Positions 27,265 through 35,829 of a stretch of 64,000 bases of DNA are shown one piece after another. Under the pieces are notes generated by a model. The model worked only from the letters and a program-made list of their open reading frames with translations. It was not told where the DNA came from and did no database searches. Within the stretch, counting starts at the first letter, position 1, and every line of letters begins with the position of its first letter. This DNA is from an uncultured Sphingomonadaceae bacterium. GTDB lineage: Bacteria > Pseudomonadota > Alphaproteobacteria > Sphingomonadales > Sphingomonadaceae. The stretch spans positions 62,001 to 126,000 of the forward strand of contig CANKZR010000002.1 in the NCBI GenBank assembly GCA_947488625.1, given 5' to 3'. Position numbers and translations under genes: made by a program.

Positions 27265-27528
27265 CGACCCGGCGCATGGGCTTGTTGCAACGCACTGTAC
27301 CCGATCCAGACCCGATCACCGCATTCAACGCCAGACTTGGGGACGTTTGAAATCGATCGATAGAAGACGCGGCAAATTCAAGGCAGCTGGACACTAGCGC
27401 GAACTTCCACCTCGCTGTGACCATTCGCCGCTTCAGATTACACGACGCGCGTGGCGCCATGCGCAAACTCTGCCTCGCGATTTTCAAAGGTTTCGTAGCG
27501 TTTCAGGGGTCGCTTGGGATGGCGGGGC

Positions 27529-27548
27529 TGGAGCGGTAGCGGGAACCG
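27529..27548. repeat. Left attachment site (remnant of tRNA-Gly 3' end)
   Basis: TGGAGCGG-TAGCGGGAACCG aligns with TGGAGCGGGTAGCGGGAATCG of the intact tRNA gene (35756-35776) with one missing base and one T to C change. Same orientation on the plus strand, as required for a duplicated core. Drift is expected because this copy is no longer under tRNA selection. Confidence 0.65.
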
Positions 27549-27602
27549 CGAAACTACTCCATCCTGTTGAAAAATGTTGAAACTTTTTCAATGGATTTCA
27601 GG

Positions 27603-27624
27603 TATACCCCCAAAGATACCCCCA
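27603..27624. repeat. Tandem ATACCCCCA motifs, left end of the island
   Basis: TATACCCCCA and GATACCCCCA spaced 12 bases apart, followed by GC. The same pair in the order GATACCCCC(C)A then TATACCCCCA plus GC is found next to the integrase at 35620-35642. Likely integrase arm-type binding sites by analogy with lambda and P4 integrases; inference. Confidence 0.5.
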
Positions 27625-27731
27625 GCTACATGTCGCTAGGCACAGATTTCCGCCCTTTGGGCCGCTTGCCATTTATCCACGAAACAAAAGCCGGACTTGC
27701 TATCGAATCGGGTTGATGATTCCGTAGAAAG

Positions 27732-27769: not shown

Positions 27770-27874
27770 CAACTAAGGGCTGGCAGGCCCCTCGCTGCGG
27801 TTTCAACGTCTCTATGATTCAAAGTGACGAAGCGGTCAAGGTGGTTTGCCAGCCTGTTTACTAGGCTTTTGATA

Positions 27875-28699
27875 ATGACAAATGACAACCAATTGGCACT
27901 GGTGCCGCATACTTACCAAGGTTCGCTAATCACCCAACGTGAAGAGGATGGCTTCATCAATGCCACGGCGATGTGCAAAGCCGCTGGCAAGGAATGGGCC
28001 CACTTTAACTCCAATTCGTCCACCAAGGCATTTCTTGAGGCCCTGGAGGGGTCCCTCGGAATTCCGCGGGACCAAATCGTTCAGAGTATAGCTACCGGTC
28101 CGAATGAGGGCCGTGGAACCTGGGTGCACCCGCAAGTTGCAGTCAATCTGGCACAATGGCTTTCAGCCGAATTCGCTGTCAAAGTAAGTCAGTGGGTTGT
28201 CGAATGGATGTCTGGCCGACACCCTTCAGAGCGGGTTTGGCAGCAGTTCGAAGATCGCGTGGCGCTCACATACGACAACGTGCCAGTCGGGTATTTCTGT
28301 GTCTTTCAACAGATTGCCGATTTGTTTGCTTCAATGATTTCCAATGGCGCTGATTTCGGGACACGCATCATTCTAGATCTCAGTGTGGGCGGATGCTGGG
28401 GCGCACATTGGAAGAACATGAGGCTGGTTGAGACTTATGGCGAGAGGGTCCAGTTTCCTCATTATTACCCGCAATACTTCCCACAAGCGCTTTCCAATCC
28501 TCAGGACGCATGGGCGTATCCAGAGGATGCTATTCCAACCTTCAAGCGCTGGCTTCGAGAAGTCTATGTTCCACAAAAGATGCCGACCTATCTAAAACGC
28601 TTGGTGAACGAGAAAAAGCTGCCTGCCCAAATCGCGAACAACACGCTTGCAGCCATTGCTCAGCGCGAAGCAAATCGAGCGTTGCCTAAAGCAGGATAA
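27875..28699 (+). CDS. KilA-N domain protein (phage-type)
   Basis: N-terminal KilA-N domain: TYQGSLITQREEDGFINATAMCKAAGKEWAHFNSNSSTKAFLEAL, then GRGTWVHPQVAVNLAQWLSAEFAVKVSQWVVEWMSG. This DNA-binding-type module is common in phage antirepressors and large DNA viruses. The C-terminal half, from about residue 130, is not recognised. The track starts with a GTG at 27824; ATG 27875 (MTNDNQLALVPHTYQG) places the domain at the N-terminus, as is usual. Base composition is visibly poorer in GC than that of neighbouring core genes. It is alone on the plus strand of the island and has its own terminator. Confidence 0.8.
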   Translation: MTNDNQLALVPHTYQGSLITQREEDGFINATAMCKAAGKEWAHFNSNSSTKAFLEALEGSLGIPRDQIVQSIATGPNEGRGTWVHPQVAVNLAQWLSAEFAVKVSQWVVEWMSGRHPSERVWQQFEDRVALTYDNVPVGYFCVFQQIADLFASMISNGADFGTRIILDLSVGGCWGAHWKNMRLVETYGERVQFPHYYPQYFPQALSNPQDAWAYPEDAIPTFKRWLREVYVPQKMPTYLKRLVNEKKLPAQIANNTLAAIAQREANRALPKAG

Positions 28700-28900: not shown

Positions 28901-29161
28901 CTACTCGGCTTCAGCTATCAGGCGGGCCATTGCCTTCAGGTATCGCGCCGCGCCTTCAGCCTCGCCAGATCGTCCGCCGTGCTTCCAGGCATTCCGGTTG
29001 CCCTTAGGTGCGCCGCTGCCCTTGCCCCCGTGCATCCTGCATCGCGGGCTGCCCTTCACTGCCGGGGATCGGCACGCCTTGCCCATCCGCGTCTTGGCTA
29101 GGCAGCGTGGGGCTTGTGCCAGCCGCGCCGGTTGCATGGGGTTGTCCGTTTGATTTTGCAT
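28901..29161 (-). CDS. Small Cys3His / HGG-motif protein of mobile elements (86 aa)
   Basis: Starts best at MQNQTDNPMQPARL (29161), with GGGGGTAGGGAAA directly before the ATG; the track adds 13 codons. It carries a spaced motif C(x8)C(x10)CxxH: CLAKTRMGKACRSPAVKGSPRCRMHGGKGSGAPKGNRNAWKHG. This pattern (TRxGxxCxxPAxxGxxxCRMHGGxG..G.RN) recurs in many short proteins from prophages and islands; a zinc site is plausible. Function unknown. Its first roughly 158 bases overlap the 3' end of the upstream gene in another frame. Last gene of the minus-strand set. Confidence 0.7.
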   Translation of the reverse strand: MQNQTDNPMQPARLAQAPRCLAKTRMGKACRSPAVKGSPRCRMHGGKGSGAPKGNRNAWKHGGRSGEAEGAARYLKAMARLIAEAE

Positions 29162-29684
29162 TTTCCCTACCCCCGCCATGGTGGTGAATGTTGTCGGCAA
29201 TCACAGCCTGCCCGCCTTCGTTCACATGCACATGGCGCACTGTCTGTTCGCGCGGCTGGTGCAGTTTGGCCAAGGCTTCCAGTGCCGCACGGGAATTGGA
29301 TTGCGCCTTGAAAGAAAGCCGCGCGTAACGCTCAGCGGCCAACGGATAATCGCCAAAGTTCATCGCGGATCGCCGGGCCAGTTCCACGAACATGGCATCG
29401 AGGGACAAGGCCTGCGCTACCAGCATCTCGGTTGCCAGTGTCAAATCCCCTTCCGCAGCGGCCTTCGCCCTTGTCTTGATCGCTTTTGCGAAGTCATCGA
29501 AATTCGGTTCGCCGGGCAATTCACCAAAAGCCTTGGTCGCTACTGCTTGGCCAAGAAAGCCATGCCGCATGAAAGGGGCGACCACGACGCGTGCCATGGT
29601 GTCTGGCTCAGTTTCGCCTTTTTCAGCTTCCACGGTCGTTACGCGGCGAGCGGGTGTTTTCTTGGCAGTTTTAGGTTTTGTCAT
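29004..29684 (-). CDS. Island protein of unknown function (226 aa)
   Basis: I cannot assign a function. The N-terminus is Lys/Thr-rich (MTKPKTAKKTPARRVTTVEAEKGE). The central part, about residues 50-150, is helical with alternating Ala and charged residues, for example FDDFAKAIKTRAKAAAEGDLTLATEMLVAQALSLDAMFVELARRSAMNFGDYPLAAERYARLSFKAQSNSRAALEALAKLHQPREQTVRHVHVNEGGQAVIAD. It resembles proteins found next to HGG-motif small proteins in alphaproteobacterial islands. The C-terminal 50 residues are low-complexity and are encoded in the overlap with the HGG gene. The start overlaps the upstream gene's stop (ATGA), implying coupling. Confidence 0.6.
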   Translation of the reverse strand: MTKPKTAKKTPARRVTTVEAEKGETEPDTMARVVVAPFMRHGFLGQAVATKAFGELPGEPNFDDFAKAIKTRAKAAAEGDLTLATEMLVAQALSLDAMFVELARRSAMNFGDYPLAAERYARLSFKAQSNSRAALEALAKLHQPREQTVRHVHVNEGGQAVIADNIHHHGGGRENAKSNGQPHATGAAGTSPTLPSQDADGQGVPIPGSEGQPAMQDARGQGQRRT

Positions 29685-30460
29685 GCCGCATGGCTCCGGC
29701 TGGAATGGTGCGCAGCGGAGAAATGCGCTGCCAAGGTTCGGGAGAAGACCAGCTGCGCAACAGGGGCGGACCAGTCAGGCTGCCACCAGCCAATGGGCAG
29801 GCAATTGCGCTCTCCCTCCCTTGGTATAGCTAAATGTGTAGCGATATCCGGCATTCGGTGGATCGGCAGATTTCCGCCATTCTTTGCATTTATCGTATCG
29901 GATTCCGCCACGGGGTGAGCGGCTGGTTCCAATGGAATTCGGGTTGTCGTATCGTAATCCAATACCGGGAATTGTCCGCTGGAGCGTGCTTGCCGGTATG
30001 CCTTCAGCACTTTCAAACCGCGTTCCATGCGCTTGCGGGCAGGCGTTTTAGGTTCCGCCTCCCGGTCCAGAAAGTCCCAGCTGGCAATCCTTTTGCCCGG
30101 CCCAGGATGCCACGTAAGCCGCCAGCAGCGAGCGCGGGAGGATTGCCCCGCCTTGATCGAGAAATGCGCATCCTGAGTCATTTGCAGGAAGCCCAGCGCC
30201 TTCAGATCATCGAAGGCCCGGCTGGCCGCTGTCAGGTCCGCCACACCAAGTCGATAGGCAGCATCGCGCACCCCCAGATACAGACTGCCGTTGTTGTCGC
30301 CATTGTAGAGCATGGCCAGTTCCACAAGCAGCGAGCGGGCATTGGGTGAAAGACTGCGATAGGCATTGCTGGTGAGAAGCTGATAATCCAGCCGGACAAA
30401 GCGGCTTGTCATGTTTCGTCCGGTTGCATTGACGCGGTTGCGGTTGCGGCGCTTGCCCAT
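29681..30460 (-). CDS. Winged-helix-like island protein, possible replication or regulatory protein (259 aa)
   Basis: The N-terminal 130 residues, FVRLDYQLLTSNAYRSLSPNARSLLVELAMLYNGDNNGSLYLGVRDAAYRLGVADLTAASRAFDDLKALGFLQMTQ, follow the layout of helix-turn-helix or winged-helix domains in plasmid and prophage replication-type proteins (LSPNARSLLVEL, NNG.L.L, an HTH, then DLKALGFL). The C-terminus is low in structure and ends in His/Ser-rich sequence. It starts 4 bases after the AlpA-like stop, so the two are co-translated, and its stop overlaps the next start. An internal ATG at 30412 (MTSRFVRL) is possible. Replication function is inference. Confidence 0.6.
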   Translation of the reverse strand: MGKRRNRNRVNATGRNMTSRFVRLDYQLLTSNAYRSLSPNARSLLVELAMLYNGDNNGSLYLGVRDAAYRLGVADLTAASRAFDDLKALGFLQMTQDAHFSIKAGQSSRARCWRLTWHPGPGKRIASWDFLDREAEPKTPARKRMERGLKVLKAYRQARSSGQFPVLDYDTTTRIPLEPAAHPVAESDTINAKNGGNLPIHRMPDIATHLAIPREGERNCLPIGWWQPDWSAPVAQLVFSRTLAAHFSAAHHSSRSHAA

Positions 30461-30463
30461 GGC

Positions 30464-30649
30464 TCAAGCTTCCCCGATGATAAGGGCGCGCAGCGAAGCA
30501 GCAGGAATGAGGGTGCGCTTGCCTATGCGGCACACGTCAAGTTTGCCTTCTCCTATCAGCTGATAAATCCGGGTGCGGCCCAGCGAGGAAACCCGGCAGG
30601 CTTCTTTGATGGAATAGGCAAGCGGTTCAAGTTGAGCGGTCGTATTCAT
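30464..30649 (-). CDS. AlpA/excisionase-like helix-turn-helix protein (61 aa)
   Basis: Short DNA-binding protein with the HTH_17/MerR-like pattern LAYSIKEACRVSSLGRTRIYQLIGEGKLDVCRIGKRTLIPAASLRALI (HTH at about residues 12-40, then the conserved wing). Proteins of this type act as excisionase or transcription factor for P4-like integrases. The track begins 18 codons earlier; I choose the ATG at 30649 (MNTTAQLEPLAYS) because GGAG precedes it. It heads the gene set 30649 to 28901, separated from the MmeI-239-aa set by a gap of about 95 bases. Confidence 0.78.
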   Translation of the reverse strand: MNTTAQLEPLAYSIKEACRVSSLGRTRIYQLIGEGKLDVCRIGKRTLIPAASLRALIIGEA

Positions 30650-30745
30650 GTGCATCTCCGTTCGTCTGTGACTGGAGATGTTTTGCCCTGACCGGCCCTG
30701 CACAGTCAGCCGGACTGGCCGGAAATGGCCGAAAACAGCATCGGC

Positions 30746-31465
30746 TTAATTTCCGGCTGAGCGGGTTCTCCGGAGCACCGCATTGATAACGGGCTGCACA
30801 ATTGTGCGGCTTGGCTCCACTTTTCCCGCCGCTACCAGACGCGCAAAGATTGCATCGATCATGGCTGATTGCCCTTCGTGACCTATACCTTCAGGAATGC
30901 CTTCGTCATGGATATATAGCGCCAGTTCCTCGGAGAAATCGGGCCACCATTTCGCGGCAGATCGACCTACAGCCTTGGGCTCCACCGCATTGGCTTCAGG
31001 TTGCCCGATAGTGTCAAGATTATCGAAGGGACCAACCGAAGGAAGCTGTCTTTCCTCAAGGATCAGTCCAATGACGGTGCCGCCATGACTATAGAAATCG
31101 CTGTTGTCTCGATACTCGAAATCACCCGCTATCCAATCAAGTTCACGGGTGAAATGCTCGCACTCGTGTAGGCAGGACCAGAATGATGATGGAATGCTGT
31201 ATAGTCCATCTGCCTCTGGCTCCGGCCTCATGGGCGAATTTTCCGAGGGAGCAATTTCGGGGTTCAGGTCTTCATAACAATCATATTTTGCGGCTCGGCC
31301 CTTCAGTTGCCCAGAGCGCAAGCGTCTAAGGATCGTATCGGTGGCGACGTTAAAGCAAACTTCGTCGTTCGCATAAATGTCTGCCATTTCGTATTGTTTG
31401 CGCAAACGAATGACAGCCGCGCCAACTGGAACCCACCTTGGCGCATTGCCTAGCTTATCGCTCAT
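30746..31465 (-). CDS. Unknown protein coupled to the MmeI-like enzyme (239 aa)
   Basis: No recognised family. The first 40 residues, WVPVGAAVIRLRKQYEMADIYANDEVCFNVATDTILRRLRSGQLKGRAAKYDC, look like a small helix-turn-helix or DNA-reading module. The middle is acidic. The C-terminal 75 residues (AKWWPDFSEELALYIHDEGIPEGIGHEGQSAMIDAIFARLVAAGKVEPSRTIVQPVINAVLRRTR) look like a separate helical domain. The gene's ATG overlaps the stop of the MmeI-like enzyme (ATGA), which ties its expression to it. It might modulate the enzyme or belong to the element's regulation; that is open. Confidence 0.55.
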   Translation of the reverse strand: MSDKLGNAPRWVPVGAAVIRLRKQYEMADIYANDEVCFNVATDTILRRLRSGQLKGRAAKYDCYEDLNPEIAPSENSPMRPEPEADGLYSIPSSFWSCLHECEHFTRELDWIAGDFEYRDNSDFYSHGGTVIGLILEERQLPSVGPFDNLDTIGQPEANAVEPKAVGRSAAKWWPDFSEELALYIHDEGIPEGIGHEGQSAMIDAIFARLVAAGKVEPSRTIVQPVINAVLRRTRSAGN

Positions 31466-34248
31466 TTCCCCGCCCGCCTCGCCACCCGCTTGTTCTTTGC
31501 CGCGCCCAGCCGCTCCAAGGGGTTCACCAGCGCCTCGTAACGCCCGAACAGGTGTTCCACCCGGTCGCGGTCGCTTGCGAAGGGAGTGGGGCGGTAGAGC
31601 CTATCAACGGCGGTATCGAGTGCGGCATGGGCTTTGCGCAGATCGGCTGGCATTGTGTCGGGATCGTAGAGATCGGCCAGGCTGGACGTAGGATGCGCAG
31701 CGCGGGCATCGAGCACCGCCTGCGCCAACGCCTCAATTTTGGTGCGTTGTGCCTCGCTGGCATCGGGCCATGGGAAGGTGTTGTAAACAAGGCCAATAGA
31801 ATAGCGAAAATCACTCTTCAACCGCCCGCCCATGTGCGCCAGCCATGACATGTGGGCGCGGCTGGTGAGAATAGCGAATTCGAACGCACTCGCGTCTGTC
31901 AGGAGAAAGACTAAGTCGCTGGGAATTGTGGGCGGTTGGACAACATCGAGCGGCACATACTCCCGTCGCTCAGAACTGACCTTGGGCAAGACAAGAAATG
32001 GTCGGTCGGGGATGACGGACATTCCAAACTCGGCTGGCGTATTAGCGGCTGCTAAAGTGCTCTTGCGCTTACTGGCTGACCGAAATTCGCGCACTTTCTT
32101 CACGCGCTCAACAACAGCGGGCATCGCTTTGATTGCGTCCGGTTCCGCTCCCCGAAGTGAAAGCACCCATCGCCTTCCGCCATTGATGAAATCTTGAGCA
32201 GCTAGATAAGGCCTTAAATATCTCTCAGCTGTCGGTTCCAGTTCCAAGAATTCTGCACGCATCTGGGCGTCGAAAATGTAGTTACCTCCATCAATGGGCT
32301 GGCTGCCAGTCGCGATGCGCCTTGCCTCGTTGATTGGCCTACTTTCTTCTTTGACGACCAGATGCCGGTTAGCCACTCCCCTCGCGTCGAACAGATAGGC
32401 AGACAGCGCCGAGTGACAGCTCTCCACCGGATCGCCCTTTATATCGGGATAGGAAAACAACCGCTTTTCGGCTGGCTCATGTTCACGGTGCGCCAATCCC
32501 ACGATCACCACATGCACATGCGCCTTGCCGCGCGCTTCGCTGCCCCAGTTGAAAGTGCGATGGGCGAAGGCAATTTCCAAGCCATGACGGTCGAACAGGA
32601 TTGGCCAAAGCTGTGCCACCTGTTCGCCTTGGCAGATCGAATTGGTCGAAACGAAGGCCAGCCGAATGCGGCGATTGGATTGGAGGTATTGCCCGGCCTT
32701 GATGAACCATGCGGCCACATAGTCCAAAGTTCCCCCGCTCCCGCCAAGCCCGGCAATCCGGCGCACCTGTTCGCGCTGGAACTGGCTCTGGAACTTTGCG
32801 CCCACGAACGGCGGATTGCCCATGATGTAGCTGCATTTCTCCGGCGGTAGCAGCGCGCTCCAGTCCGCCTCCAGCGCGTCGCCATGCAGGATATGGGCGG
32901 ACTCTTTCAGCGGAATACGCGCGTAATTGAGCCGGAAGGCCTCGTTGATTTCGTTATTGGCGATATGGTCCATCATCCACATGGCCACCTCGGCAATGCG
33001 CGCGGGGAATTCCTCGAATTCGATGCCGTAGAACTGGTCCACCGTAACGCGTGAAAGCAAGGCGGCGTCAATTTGCTGGTCGCCGTATTGCGCCTTAAGG
33101 CATTCCAGTTCCAGCCGCCGGATTTCGCGGTATGCGATAACAAGAAAGTTGCCGCAGCCGCAGGCGGGATCGAAGAACGTAAGCCGTGTCAGCTTGTCCT
33201 GAAACTTGGCCAGTTCCCTGTCGCGGGCGGTCTTTCGCGCGGTGATGCTGGCCAGTTCCGCTTTCAGATCGTCCAGGAACAGCGGACCAATCACTTTCAG
33301 GATATTGGCTTCGGTTGTGTAGTGCGCCCCCTTCGCCCGGCGCTGCTTTGCATCCATCACGGATTGGAACAGCGAGCCGAAAATGGCAGGCGAAACGCCG
33401 GACCAGTCATGCCGCGCCGCGTCCAGCAGGTGCCCCCGCATGGTGGCGTCGAAATGGGCGGTTCTCAGCCTACCCCCGAACAGCTGCCCGTTGACGTAGG
33501 GGAAGGCATTAAGTTCGTCGGGCAGGTTACTCTGCCGGGCGTTCTCTGGCGTATCCAGCACGTCGAACAGGTCACTGAGCACCCGGCCAACATTGCTGCC
33601 ATCGGGCTTGGTGTCATTGTCGATCAGCTGGAGGAAAATATCCTTCGGCTGGAAAATGCCCGTATCGTCCGCAAACAGGCAGAACAGCAGACGGACAAGC
33701 AGTTGCTCCAGATCATGGCCGCGATAGCCTGATTCCTCCAGCGCATCATGCAGCTTGCCCATCAACTCGGCAGCCTTGATCGTAACGCCCGCCTGCGTCT
33801 CGAAACTGACCTTGCGGCCAAGCATGAAATCGAAGGCAGTTATATGCTTGTGCAGGTCTTGCAGGTGGAACTTTAATTCCCGGCCTGTCTCAAGGTCCAG
33901 CAACCGCCACCGTTGAAAGTCGCAGGTTAAAACCCAGCGCGGCTGGTCTGTAGGATGAACGCCCTGCACATAATCCAGCGCCTGTCCTCGGGCGCGGTCC
34001 AGATCGAGGTTTGCGCTTTTCTGTTCGACAAGCAGGGTGCCGGGCCAGAACAGGTCAATGAAGCCGTGCTTCTCCGAAAGCAGCTTCACCCGTTGTTCGA
34101 ATATCGCAACCTGCCTGCGCCTGATGCCAAACAACTCGAAAAATTCATTGTAGAAGGTTTGCGTTTCGCCCTTTTCGTAGTGAGCGTCCCTCCATTCCTC
34201 ACTGAAGGCTTTCGCGCGCCGCTTTATCTCGTCCCAGCCTAGCCGCAT
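31462..34248 (-). CDS. MmeI-like single-chain restriction-modification enzyme (type IIL)
   Basis: One polypeptide of 928 residues that should both cut and methylate DNA. N-terminal nuclease: HGFIDLFWPGTLLVEQKS carries the D-(x9)-ExK motif (about D65, E75, K77). A helical spacer follows. The N6-adenine methyltransferase has motif I FFDPACGCGNFLVIAYRE (around D360) and motif IV YIMGNPPFVGAK (around 478-481). Target-recognition and C-terminal domains complete the MmeI-type layout. Start: ATG 34248 (MRLGWDEIKRRAKAF), with AGGGGG upstream; the track's extra 11 codons are less likely. All key residues are present, so it looks functional. It is adjacent to the integrase but on its own probable transcript. 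Confidence 0.88.
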   Translation of the reverse strand: MRLGWDEIKRRAKAFSEEWRDAHYEKGETQTFYNEFFELFGIRRRQVAIFEQRVKLLSEKHGFIDLFWPGTLLVEQKSANLDLDRARGQALDYVQGVHPTDQPRWVLTCDFQRWRLLDLETGRELKFHLQDLHKHITAFDFMLGRKVSFETQAGVTIKAAELMGKLHDALEESGYRGHDLEQLLVRLLFCLFADDTGIFQPKDIFLQLIDNDTKPDGSNVGRVLSDLFDVLDTPENARQSNLPDELNAFPYVNGQLFGGRLRTAHFDATMRGHLLDAARHDWSGVSPAIFGSLFQSVMDAKQRRAKGAHYTTEANILKVIGPLFLDDLKAELASITARKTARDRELAKFQDKLTRLTFFDPACGCGNFLVIAYREIRRLELECLKAQYGDQQIDAALLSRVTVDQFYGIEFEEFPARIAEVAMWMMDHIANNEINEAFRLNYARIPLKESAHILHGDALEADWSALLPPEKCSYIMGNPPFVGAKFQSQFQREQVRRIAGLGGSGGTLDYVAAWFIKAGQYLQSNRRIRLAFVSTNSICQGEQVAQLWPILFDRHGLEIAFAHRTFNWGSEARGKAHVHVVIVGLAHREHEPAEKRLFSYPDIKGDPVESCHSALSAYLFDARGVANRHLVVKEESRPINEARRIATGSQPIDGGNYIFDAQMRAEFLELEPTAERYLRPYLAAQDFINGGRRWVLSLRGAEPDAIKAMPAVVERVKKVREFRSASKRKSTLAAANTPAEFGMSVIPDRPFLVLPKVSSERREYVPLDVVQPPTIPSDLVFLLTDASAFEFAILTSRAHMSWLAHMGGRLKSDFRYSIGLVYNTFPWPDASEAQRTKIEALAQAVLDARAAHPTSSLADLYDPDTMPADLRKAHAALDTAVDRLYRPTPFASDRDRVEHLFGRYEALVNPLERLGAAKNKRVARRAGK

Positions 34249-34311
34249 GATACCCCCTAGCGTTCGCAAGGGTTTAGGCACGTTCGCAGGTGTCGGGCAA
34301 GCCTTGGGGTG

Positions 34312-35544
34312 TCAGCTGGCTTCCCGGCTGGGGAAAGCTCCCACGTCCGCGCCTTTGCGCAGCGCGTCCAAATAGTCGCTCCACCAGTGCGCCATCTGCA
34401 CCCGCTCCTGCCAATGCGCACCGCGATGGTAGGCCGCCCGCACCTTGTCGCTGTCGCCATGGGCAAGCGCGCGTTCGATCGCATCCGGGTTCCACTTGCC
34501 GCTTTCGTTCAACAGGGTGGATGCCATCGCGCGAAAGCCATGCGCGGTCATTTCTCCGCTAGTGTAACCCAGCCGCCTTAGAGCCGCGTTGAGGGTGTTT
34601 TCGCTCATCGGGCGGGTTCGTGTCCGAATAGAGGGAAAGGCATAGCCTGTCGGACCTGTAGCGGCGTGCAGTTGTCTCAGGATGGCCACCGCCTGCTTTG
34701 ACAGCGGCACATGGTGCGCCTTACCCATTTTCATCTTGCCTGCCGGGATATTCCACACGTCCGCGTCCAGATCGATTTCCTCCCATTCGGCATGGCGAAG
34801 TTCACCGGGACGAACGAATACATGTGGAGCGAATTGCAAAGCCAGCTTGGTAATTCCACTGCCATCATAACCATCAATCGCGCGCAACAATGCGCCCACA
34901 TTCTTGGCATCGGTGATTGCGCCGTAATGCGTAACGGTAGGGGCAGTCAGCGCCCCCTTGAGATCGCGCGTAGGATCGGAGCGCAAGCGGGCAGTTGCCA
35001 CGGCATAGCGAAAGACCATGCTCGCCAGTTGAAGGGTGCGCCTTGCACTTTCCAGATTGCCCTTCGCCTCGATCTTGCGCACCGCTGCCAGCACATCCGC
35101 AGGTTCGATCTCCGAAATTGCCAGCCGCCCTATGCCGGGATTGAGAAGGGACAGCAGATACTCGCTCCGCTTGGCCGTGGCGGGCGTCCATCCGTTTTCC
35201 CCGTCGCGGCGGCGCTTTGCACAATACTCATTGGTAATAGCGGTGAAGGTGTCGGTCGCCTGCGCGCGGGAGCGCACCTTGTCACGCTGCTTTTCGCGCG
35301 AAGGGTCCACGCCCCGCGCAATAAGGCTTCGCGCTTCATCGCGCCGCTTACGGGCGTCGCTCAAACCAGTTTCAGGATAGGCTCCCATGGCGAGCAATTT
35401 CTCGCGTCCATCGATCCGGTATTTCAGCCGCCAAAGCTTGCCCCCGGCAGGTGTCACCAGCAGGAACATGCCTGCGCCGTCTGCCAGCTTGAATGCCTTT
35501 TCGCCCGGCTTCGCATTCCGGATTGCCACGTCTGTCAGCGCCAT
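34312..35544 (-). CDS. P4-type tyrosine integrase of the island
   Basis: Site-specific recombinase of 410 residues. The N-terminal domain is DUF4102-like: TDVAIRNAKPGEKAFKLADGAGMFLLVTPAGGKLWRLKYRIDGREKLLAMGAYPETGLSDARKRRDEARSLIARGVDPSREKQ. A SAM-like core-binding domain follows, then the catalytic domain with Arg in FVRPGELRHAEWEEID, HxxR in TAHGFRAMASTLLNE, a second His in LAHGDSDKVRAAYHRG and the Tyr in that segment. It lies 211 bases from the tRNA-Gly 3' end, oriented toward the island interior, the classical arrangement. It should drive insertion into and, with the AlpA-like factor, excision from the tRNA. Confidence 0.93.
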   Translation of the reverse strand: MALTDVAIRNAKPGEKAFKLADGAGMFLLVTPAGGKLWRLKYRIDGREKLLAMGAYPETGLSDARKRRDEARSLIARGVDPSREKQRDKVRSRAQATDTFTAITNEYCAKRRRDGENGWTPATAKRSEYLLSLLNPGIGRLAISEIEPADVLAAVRKIEAKGNLESARRTLQLASMVFRYAVATARLRSDPTRDLKGALTAPTVTHYGAITDAKNVGALLRAIDGYDGSGITKLALQFAPHVFVRPGELRHAEWEEIDLDADVWNIPAGKMKMGKAHHVPLSKQAVAILRQLHAATGPTGYAFPSIRTRTRPMSENTLNAALRRLGYTSGEMTAHGFRAMASTLLNESGKWNPDAIERALAHGDSDKVRAAYHRGAHWQERVQMAHWWSDYLDALRKGADVGAFPSREAS

Positions 35545-35580
35545 TTGATCCGCCCGCCCTTCTAGGGATTCGCCCTCAAA

Positions 35581-35642
35581 TTACCCCCACGTCTGGGGGT
35601 ATCGCATTGGCCGCTGGCAGATACCCCCCAATTATACCCCCA
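35581..35642. repeat. ATACCCCCA motif cluster between integrase and tRNA
   Basis: TTACCCCCA (35581-35589), its inverse TGGGGGTATC (35594-35603), GATACCCCCCA (35620-35630) and TTATACCCCCAGC (35632-35644). The pair at 35620-35642 matches the pair at 27603-27624 in the other end of the island. Expected position for integrase arm-type sites and the integrase promoter. Confidence 0.55.
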
Positions 35643-35755
35643 GCGAAGTGCGGCTGGATGCGAACGCGGGCGGACGCTAGCGGCCTAAGGTCGCCAGAAT
35701 ACGGGGGTTTTCAGGGGATTGTCCAGTCAAATACGGACACTGGCGAACGGGGCAA

Positions 35756-35776
35756 TGGAGCGGGTAGCGGGAATCG
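35756..35776. repeat. Right attachment site inside tRNA-Gly
   Basis: The 3' end of the tRNA (TGGAGCGGGTAGCGGGAATCG on the plus strand) is matched by the partial copy at 27529-27548. This pair delimits the island. Confidence 0.65.
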
Positions 35777-35829
35777 AACCCGCATAACCAGCTTGGAAGG
35801 CTGGGGCTTTACCACTAAGCTATACCCGC
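35756..35829 (-). tRNA. tRNA-Gly (anticodon TCC)
   Basis: Minus-strand sequence starts GCGGGTATAGCTTAGTGGTA and ends with GCGGGTTCGATTCCCGC TACCCGC, discriminator T and encoded CCA. The anticodon stem is CCAGC / GCTGG with loop CTTCCAA, giving TCC, which reads GGA and GGG. D-loop, T-loop (TTCGATT) and acceptor stem all pair. It remains intact because the island's attachment core reconstitutes its 3' end. Confidence 0.97.

Follow-up and report, generated by a model that had tools for sequence, protein, structure and literature searches.

Type IIL enzymes of the MmeI kind cleave DNA about 20/18 nt away and methylate only one strand. Control (C) proteins of restriction-modification (R-M) systems are small HTH_3-type regulators located upstream of the endonuclease, while recombination directionality factors promote excision and bind att DNA. 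For MmeI (PDB 5HR4), both the nuclease residues, D70/E80/K82, and the residue-to-base rules for target reading in MmeI-type enzymes have been described (PMC4833311). The locus presented here, found in a stretch of 64,000 nucleotides of an uncultured Sphingomonadaceae bacterium (hereafter the window), combines an enzyme of this type with a gene of no recognised family, within a small island that also carries a gene similar to that of the abortive-infection protein BstA (PMC8585504).

The MmeI-like enzyme is encoded on the minus strand at 31462–34248 and comprises 928 aa, or 939 aa if the alternative GTG start at 34281 is used. It was delimited in the ORF list and characterized by Pfam, PADLOC and PDB comparisons. 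Pfam domains MmeI_N, MmeI_hel, MmeI_Mtase, MmeI_TRD and MmeI_C are all above the cut-off, the PADLOC type IIG model covers residues 3–909 (E=0), and the alignment to 5hr4 extends over residues 1–910 (E=1.7e-267). In the segment FIDLFWPGTLLVEQK, which starts at residue 63, residues D65/E75/K77 align with MmeI D70/E80/K82, and the methyltransferase motifs DPACGCGNF at 360 and NPPF at 478 are intact. Nuclease, helical spacer, N6-adenine methyltransferase, target recognition domain (TRD) and C-terminal domain are thus arranged in a single chain, as is characteristic of type IIL architecture. With five domains end to end and the same nuclease and methyltransferase residues as MmeI, the enzyme is a further example of this known group, complete at the level of sequence and probably active.

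The enzyme differs from MmeI in its target-reading residues, which are K751, D773, L774, R810, K806 and D808 in MmeI numbering, according to the alignment to 5hr4. Following the published rules (PMC4833311), K751/D773 would specify G at position 3, L774 together with R810 G at position 4, and K806/D808 G at position 6, with the methylated A at position 5. The predicted target is NNGGAG, in contrast to TCCRAC of MmeI. R723 may favour C at target position 1. The prediction can be checked directly in long-read methylation data.

The second gene (30746–31465, minus strand), found in the ORF list and placed in its family by the profile census, codes for a protein of 239 aa, referred to here as the partner. 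At the junction, ...GGGGAAATGAGCGATAAG..., its ATG overlaps the TGA of the enzyme by 4 nt (ATGA). Since homologues of each stand open in other genomes, both ORFs are real genes, beyond what chance would leave. Searches of Pfam, NCBIfam, PADLOC, PHROGs and PDB sequences gave no match to the partner. Its structure model, of moderate confidence (mean pLDDT 67.7), suggests a strand-helix-helix-strand unit at the N terminus and a unit of three helices at the C terminus, and a Foldseek comparison of the model with PDB and BFVD gave no significant fold match. The model of one relative (mean pLDDT 46.1) was left out of interpretation. The initial annotation had described a complete MmeI-like enzyme with intact D...ExK, DPACGCGNF and NPPF motifs, probably active and borne by an island, followed by a 239-residue gene that starts inside its stop, belongs to no recognised family and has two parts. 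The five Pfam domains, the 5hr4 alignment, the motif residues, the surrounding island, the junction and the database searches all agree with this description, and the modelled units are compatible with a two-part protein.

The island is about 8.2 kb long (about 27.52–35.76 kb of the window) and holds the enzyme, the partner, an integrase and the BstA-like gene. Its likely integration target is a tRNA-Gly(tcc) gene (35756–35829, minus strand). Inward from this gene, and all on the minus strand, follow a tyrosine integrase that opens the row (34312–35544; Pfam Arm-DNA-bind_3, Phage_int_M and Phage_integrase), the MmeI-like enzyme, the partner, an AlpA/excisionase-type HTH protein (30464–30703; Pfam HTH_17, NCBIfam excise), a conserved 259-aa island protein, taken here as an island marker (29681–30460; in 39/401 family genomes), and a 226-aa protein of no family (29004–29684), which overlaps the preceding gene by 4 nt and has a counterpart at 69% in locus L034. 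The BstA-like gene at the left end (27872–28699, plus strand) converges on the remaining island genes. Its product, a second defence candidate, has a KilA-N and a BstA C-terminal part (PADLOC BstA 4e-54; PHROG 6287 5.5e-62) like the described BstA (PMC8585504), but differs in that its gene sits on a small island.

Repeat alignment revealed that the 3' end of tRNA-Gly recurs in degenerate form at 27523–27548, a candidate far attachment site, with its near copy at the tRNA-Gly 3' end itself (35748–35776). The score of this alignment is 35, whereas none of 500 shuffles scored above 26. An integrase adjoining a tRNA gene and a flanking direct repeat, although a degenerate one, are the features expected of a tRNA integrative island. 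In a comparison aimed at an empty site, three congeners had the right flank beside tRNA-Gly, but the left flank was not found there. Integrase at the tRNA, AlpA-type gene and small size are shared with tRNA-targeted islands carrying AlpA, including phage-inducible chromosomal islands. A further likeness to them is an ORF with a HGGxSTG domain, similar to the terminase small subunit (28901–29200, minus strand), in a frame other than that of the overlapping 226-aa ORF. It hints at a phage-satellite origin, but unlike in those islands, no capsid or helper-phage functions are shown for the island in the window, and its satellite nature is that of a candidate. TACCCCC-type repeats, possibly the integrase arm sites, are located close to the island ends (27600–27640 and 35580–35655).

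A search of 101 relatives disclosed two homologues of the partner. The closest, 46% identical, is behind a type ISP enzyme (L036/L133, in a genome matching Croceibacterium xixiisoli), and the second, 31% identical, is behind an MmeI-like enzyme (L034). A profile built of three sequences (A1) matched 13/401 genomes of the family, and a profile of 15 sequences (A2) matched 42/401. Distant members were joined via iterated profiles, which, applied to fetched neighbourhoods, gave 44 members from the 401 family genomes. Beyond the family, a class sample of 289 genomes gave a single weak match. The A1 profile detected two loci in genome contigs and had no match in viral contigs, while A2 was too diverse for use in the contig scan. 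No match was obtained with the partner as a single-sequence query against genome contigs, plasmids and phages, nor with sequences of its relatives in tblastn searches against plasmids and phages.

Sequences of the family diverge fast. Members have in common a C-terminal domain with the consensus GRPxxxDW...NQxxI...PxxSTVRPY, while their N-terminal parts vary: some have a single or a double IPxxFW...DWxxGDF module, others unrelated segments that are helical or probably lie in the membrane, as illustrated by the duplicated module in L142/L144, a long helical part in L189 and likely membrane segments in L196. Weak HTH matches scattered among relatives (HTH_32, 0.015; HTH_Tnp_Tc5, 0.011 in two) are no more than suggestive. 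It is extremely improbable that adjacency and overlap arose by chance from an ORF that is non-coding or decayed; fast divergence would fit such an origin, but in several genomes homologues of similar length occupy this position as open frames and retain DWIAGDF and the C-terminal motifs, a conservation that refutes this explanation.

The family is linked to integrases. Half of its genes (22/44) directly follow a tyrosine integrase of the same strand at a distance of <300 bp, four of them overlapping it by 4 nt; another 11/44 are downstream of an integrase with other genes intervening, and for the remaining 11/44 no integrase on the same strand was within reach upstream. The integrases of L137 and L139 escaped the profile but were confirmed by Pfam. 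The control set of 31 MmeI-centred loci (413 kb) contained one integrase. The interval between integrase and partner is occupied by type IIL genes in the window locus and L034, by type ISP in L036, by an IIG-like gene in L136 and by R-M-like ORFs in L138 and L187, and in general, type IIL, IIG-like, ISP, type I and type III-like systems are found among the cargo around the family. Shortly after the partner-family gene, and often ahead of restriction cargo, another tyrosine recombinase (MAKHNA...) recurs in L135, L137, L139, L141, L142, L144, L176–L179, L182, L187–L189 and L194; the one in L142 is a Pfam Phage_integrase.

The family is absent from other MmeI-like genes. According to the initial annotation, the partner could be a new companion coupled to the MmeI-like enzyme (an inhibitor, a control protein or an additional defence factor), an idea that homologues found mostly away from MmeI-like genes would contradict. 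The count gave this outcome: only 3/44 genes are neighbours of an MmeI-like gene, one case (L136) being remote at 24% identity, 41/44 are away from any, and the family is missing from all 31 loci that were selected for other MmeI-like genes. Per genome, the two families are unassociated (9/63 vs 33/338, Fisher p=0.27). An MmeI-specific accessory is not supported by these counts, and the claim gives way to a checkable one, that of an integrase-linked family.

We consider it likely (probability about 0.72) that the locus represents a cargo slot of a tRNA-Gly island, and that the partner is an element protein and not a new partner of the enzyme. Where the partner lies and how it is coupled suggest that it works for the element, and since its family normally follows the integrase, it is probably a part of the island machinery. 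A self-contained type IIL enzyme would have been inserted between the integrase and the gene usually next behind it, and the row would be co-transcribed inward, from the integrase on. The enzyme would methylate and cut at NNGGAG by itself, and the partner, built of a variable N-terminal part and the common C-terminal helical domain, would serve the element, probably as a regulator that binds DNA or as an accessory of recombination. The observed coupling would then be a consequence of the cargo insertion point. Agreement between the identities of partners and those of integrases is only weak (Mantel r 0.22, 15/2000 permutations), and this co-divergence speaks neither way firmly about a directionality factor. 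Divergence of the partner, faster than that of the integrase, speaks against a protein strictly dedicated to the integrase, for example a directionality factor of its own.

Two other explanations have to be weighed against the element protein. The partner is unlikely to be a true R-M accessory, i.e. a control protein, inhibitor or specificity modulator that serves MmeI here and other enzymes elsewhere. In addition to the 4-nt translational overlap, such a role would accord with the five closest members of the family, of which four lie right behind an R-M enzyme, whereas the fifth has such an enzyme about 2 kb downstream, and with the comparison to L034. This second island has a near-identical MmeI (nuclease, methyltransferase and C-terminal domains 87–91% identical, methyltransferase 90%), yet its TRD is 49% and its partner 31% identical, so that the two loci differ in both partner and TRD. 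Against it, half of the family stands directly behind integrases with no R-M gene between, other MmeI-like genes lack the partner, and the partner does not track the enzyme type: its closest relative is placed behind type ISP, and the L034 partner is only 31% identical in spite of a methyltransferase domain 90% identical in the enzyme beside it. The partner overlaps an R-M gene and is small, as are C proteins, but it is about three times larger than they are, positioned downstream instead of upstream, and bears no likeness to known control proteins. Control protein function was rejected because of the absence of a HTH match, the length of 239 aa and the position. Because of the R-M enzymes immediately upstream in four of the five closest members, an R-M-linked role is retained for the close subfamily, as a doubtful one.

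Somewhat less doubtful, but still improbable, is that the partner is an independent, fast-diverging gene for defence, anti-defence or element immunity, placed at a swap site behind the integrase. Integrases 76–92% identical can carry partners that are only 23–29% identical, and N-terminal parts differing in kind above a common C-terminal domain would also be expected of such a gene. However, no PADLOC match of weight was observed in the members scanned, tblastn gave no phage or plasmid homologue, and the C-terminal domain that the members have in common is suggestive of a function shared among elements. For an element protein, fast divergence would fit a role as sensor-regulator or in immunity. 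We tentatively suggest that Sphingomonadaceae elements could share an undescribed post-integrase gene, with the common C-terminal domain kept and the N-terminal part swapped or diverging much faster than the integrase, as a sensor-regulator or immunity determinant; if true, such a gene would have this role in elements ferrying restriction systems between hosts. In the Sphingomonadaceae, mobile elements with defence cargo are marked by this integrase-linked family, as yet without a name, which could be of use in finding them.

Inspection of other MmeI-like genes gave some additional observations. In L106–L116, several relatives from the same bacterial family are split over at least 2 frames (e.g. 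L109, L110, L112, L114 and L116), which suggests that inactivation is frequent or that the sequences contain errors. On another island, a different, unrelated protein of 257 aa is encoded with a 4-nt overlap to a distant MmeI-like gene (33%; L046, 1896–5593, minus strand). In three genomes (L117, L118 and L120), MmeI-like genes (about 35%) are followed within 15 nt by a gene for a 665–685-aa protein beginning with MPDF..., a better candidate for an MmeI-linked role than the 239-aa partner.
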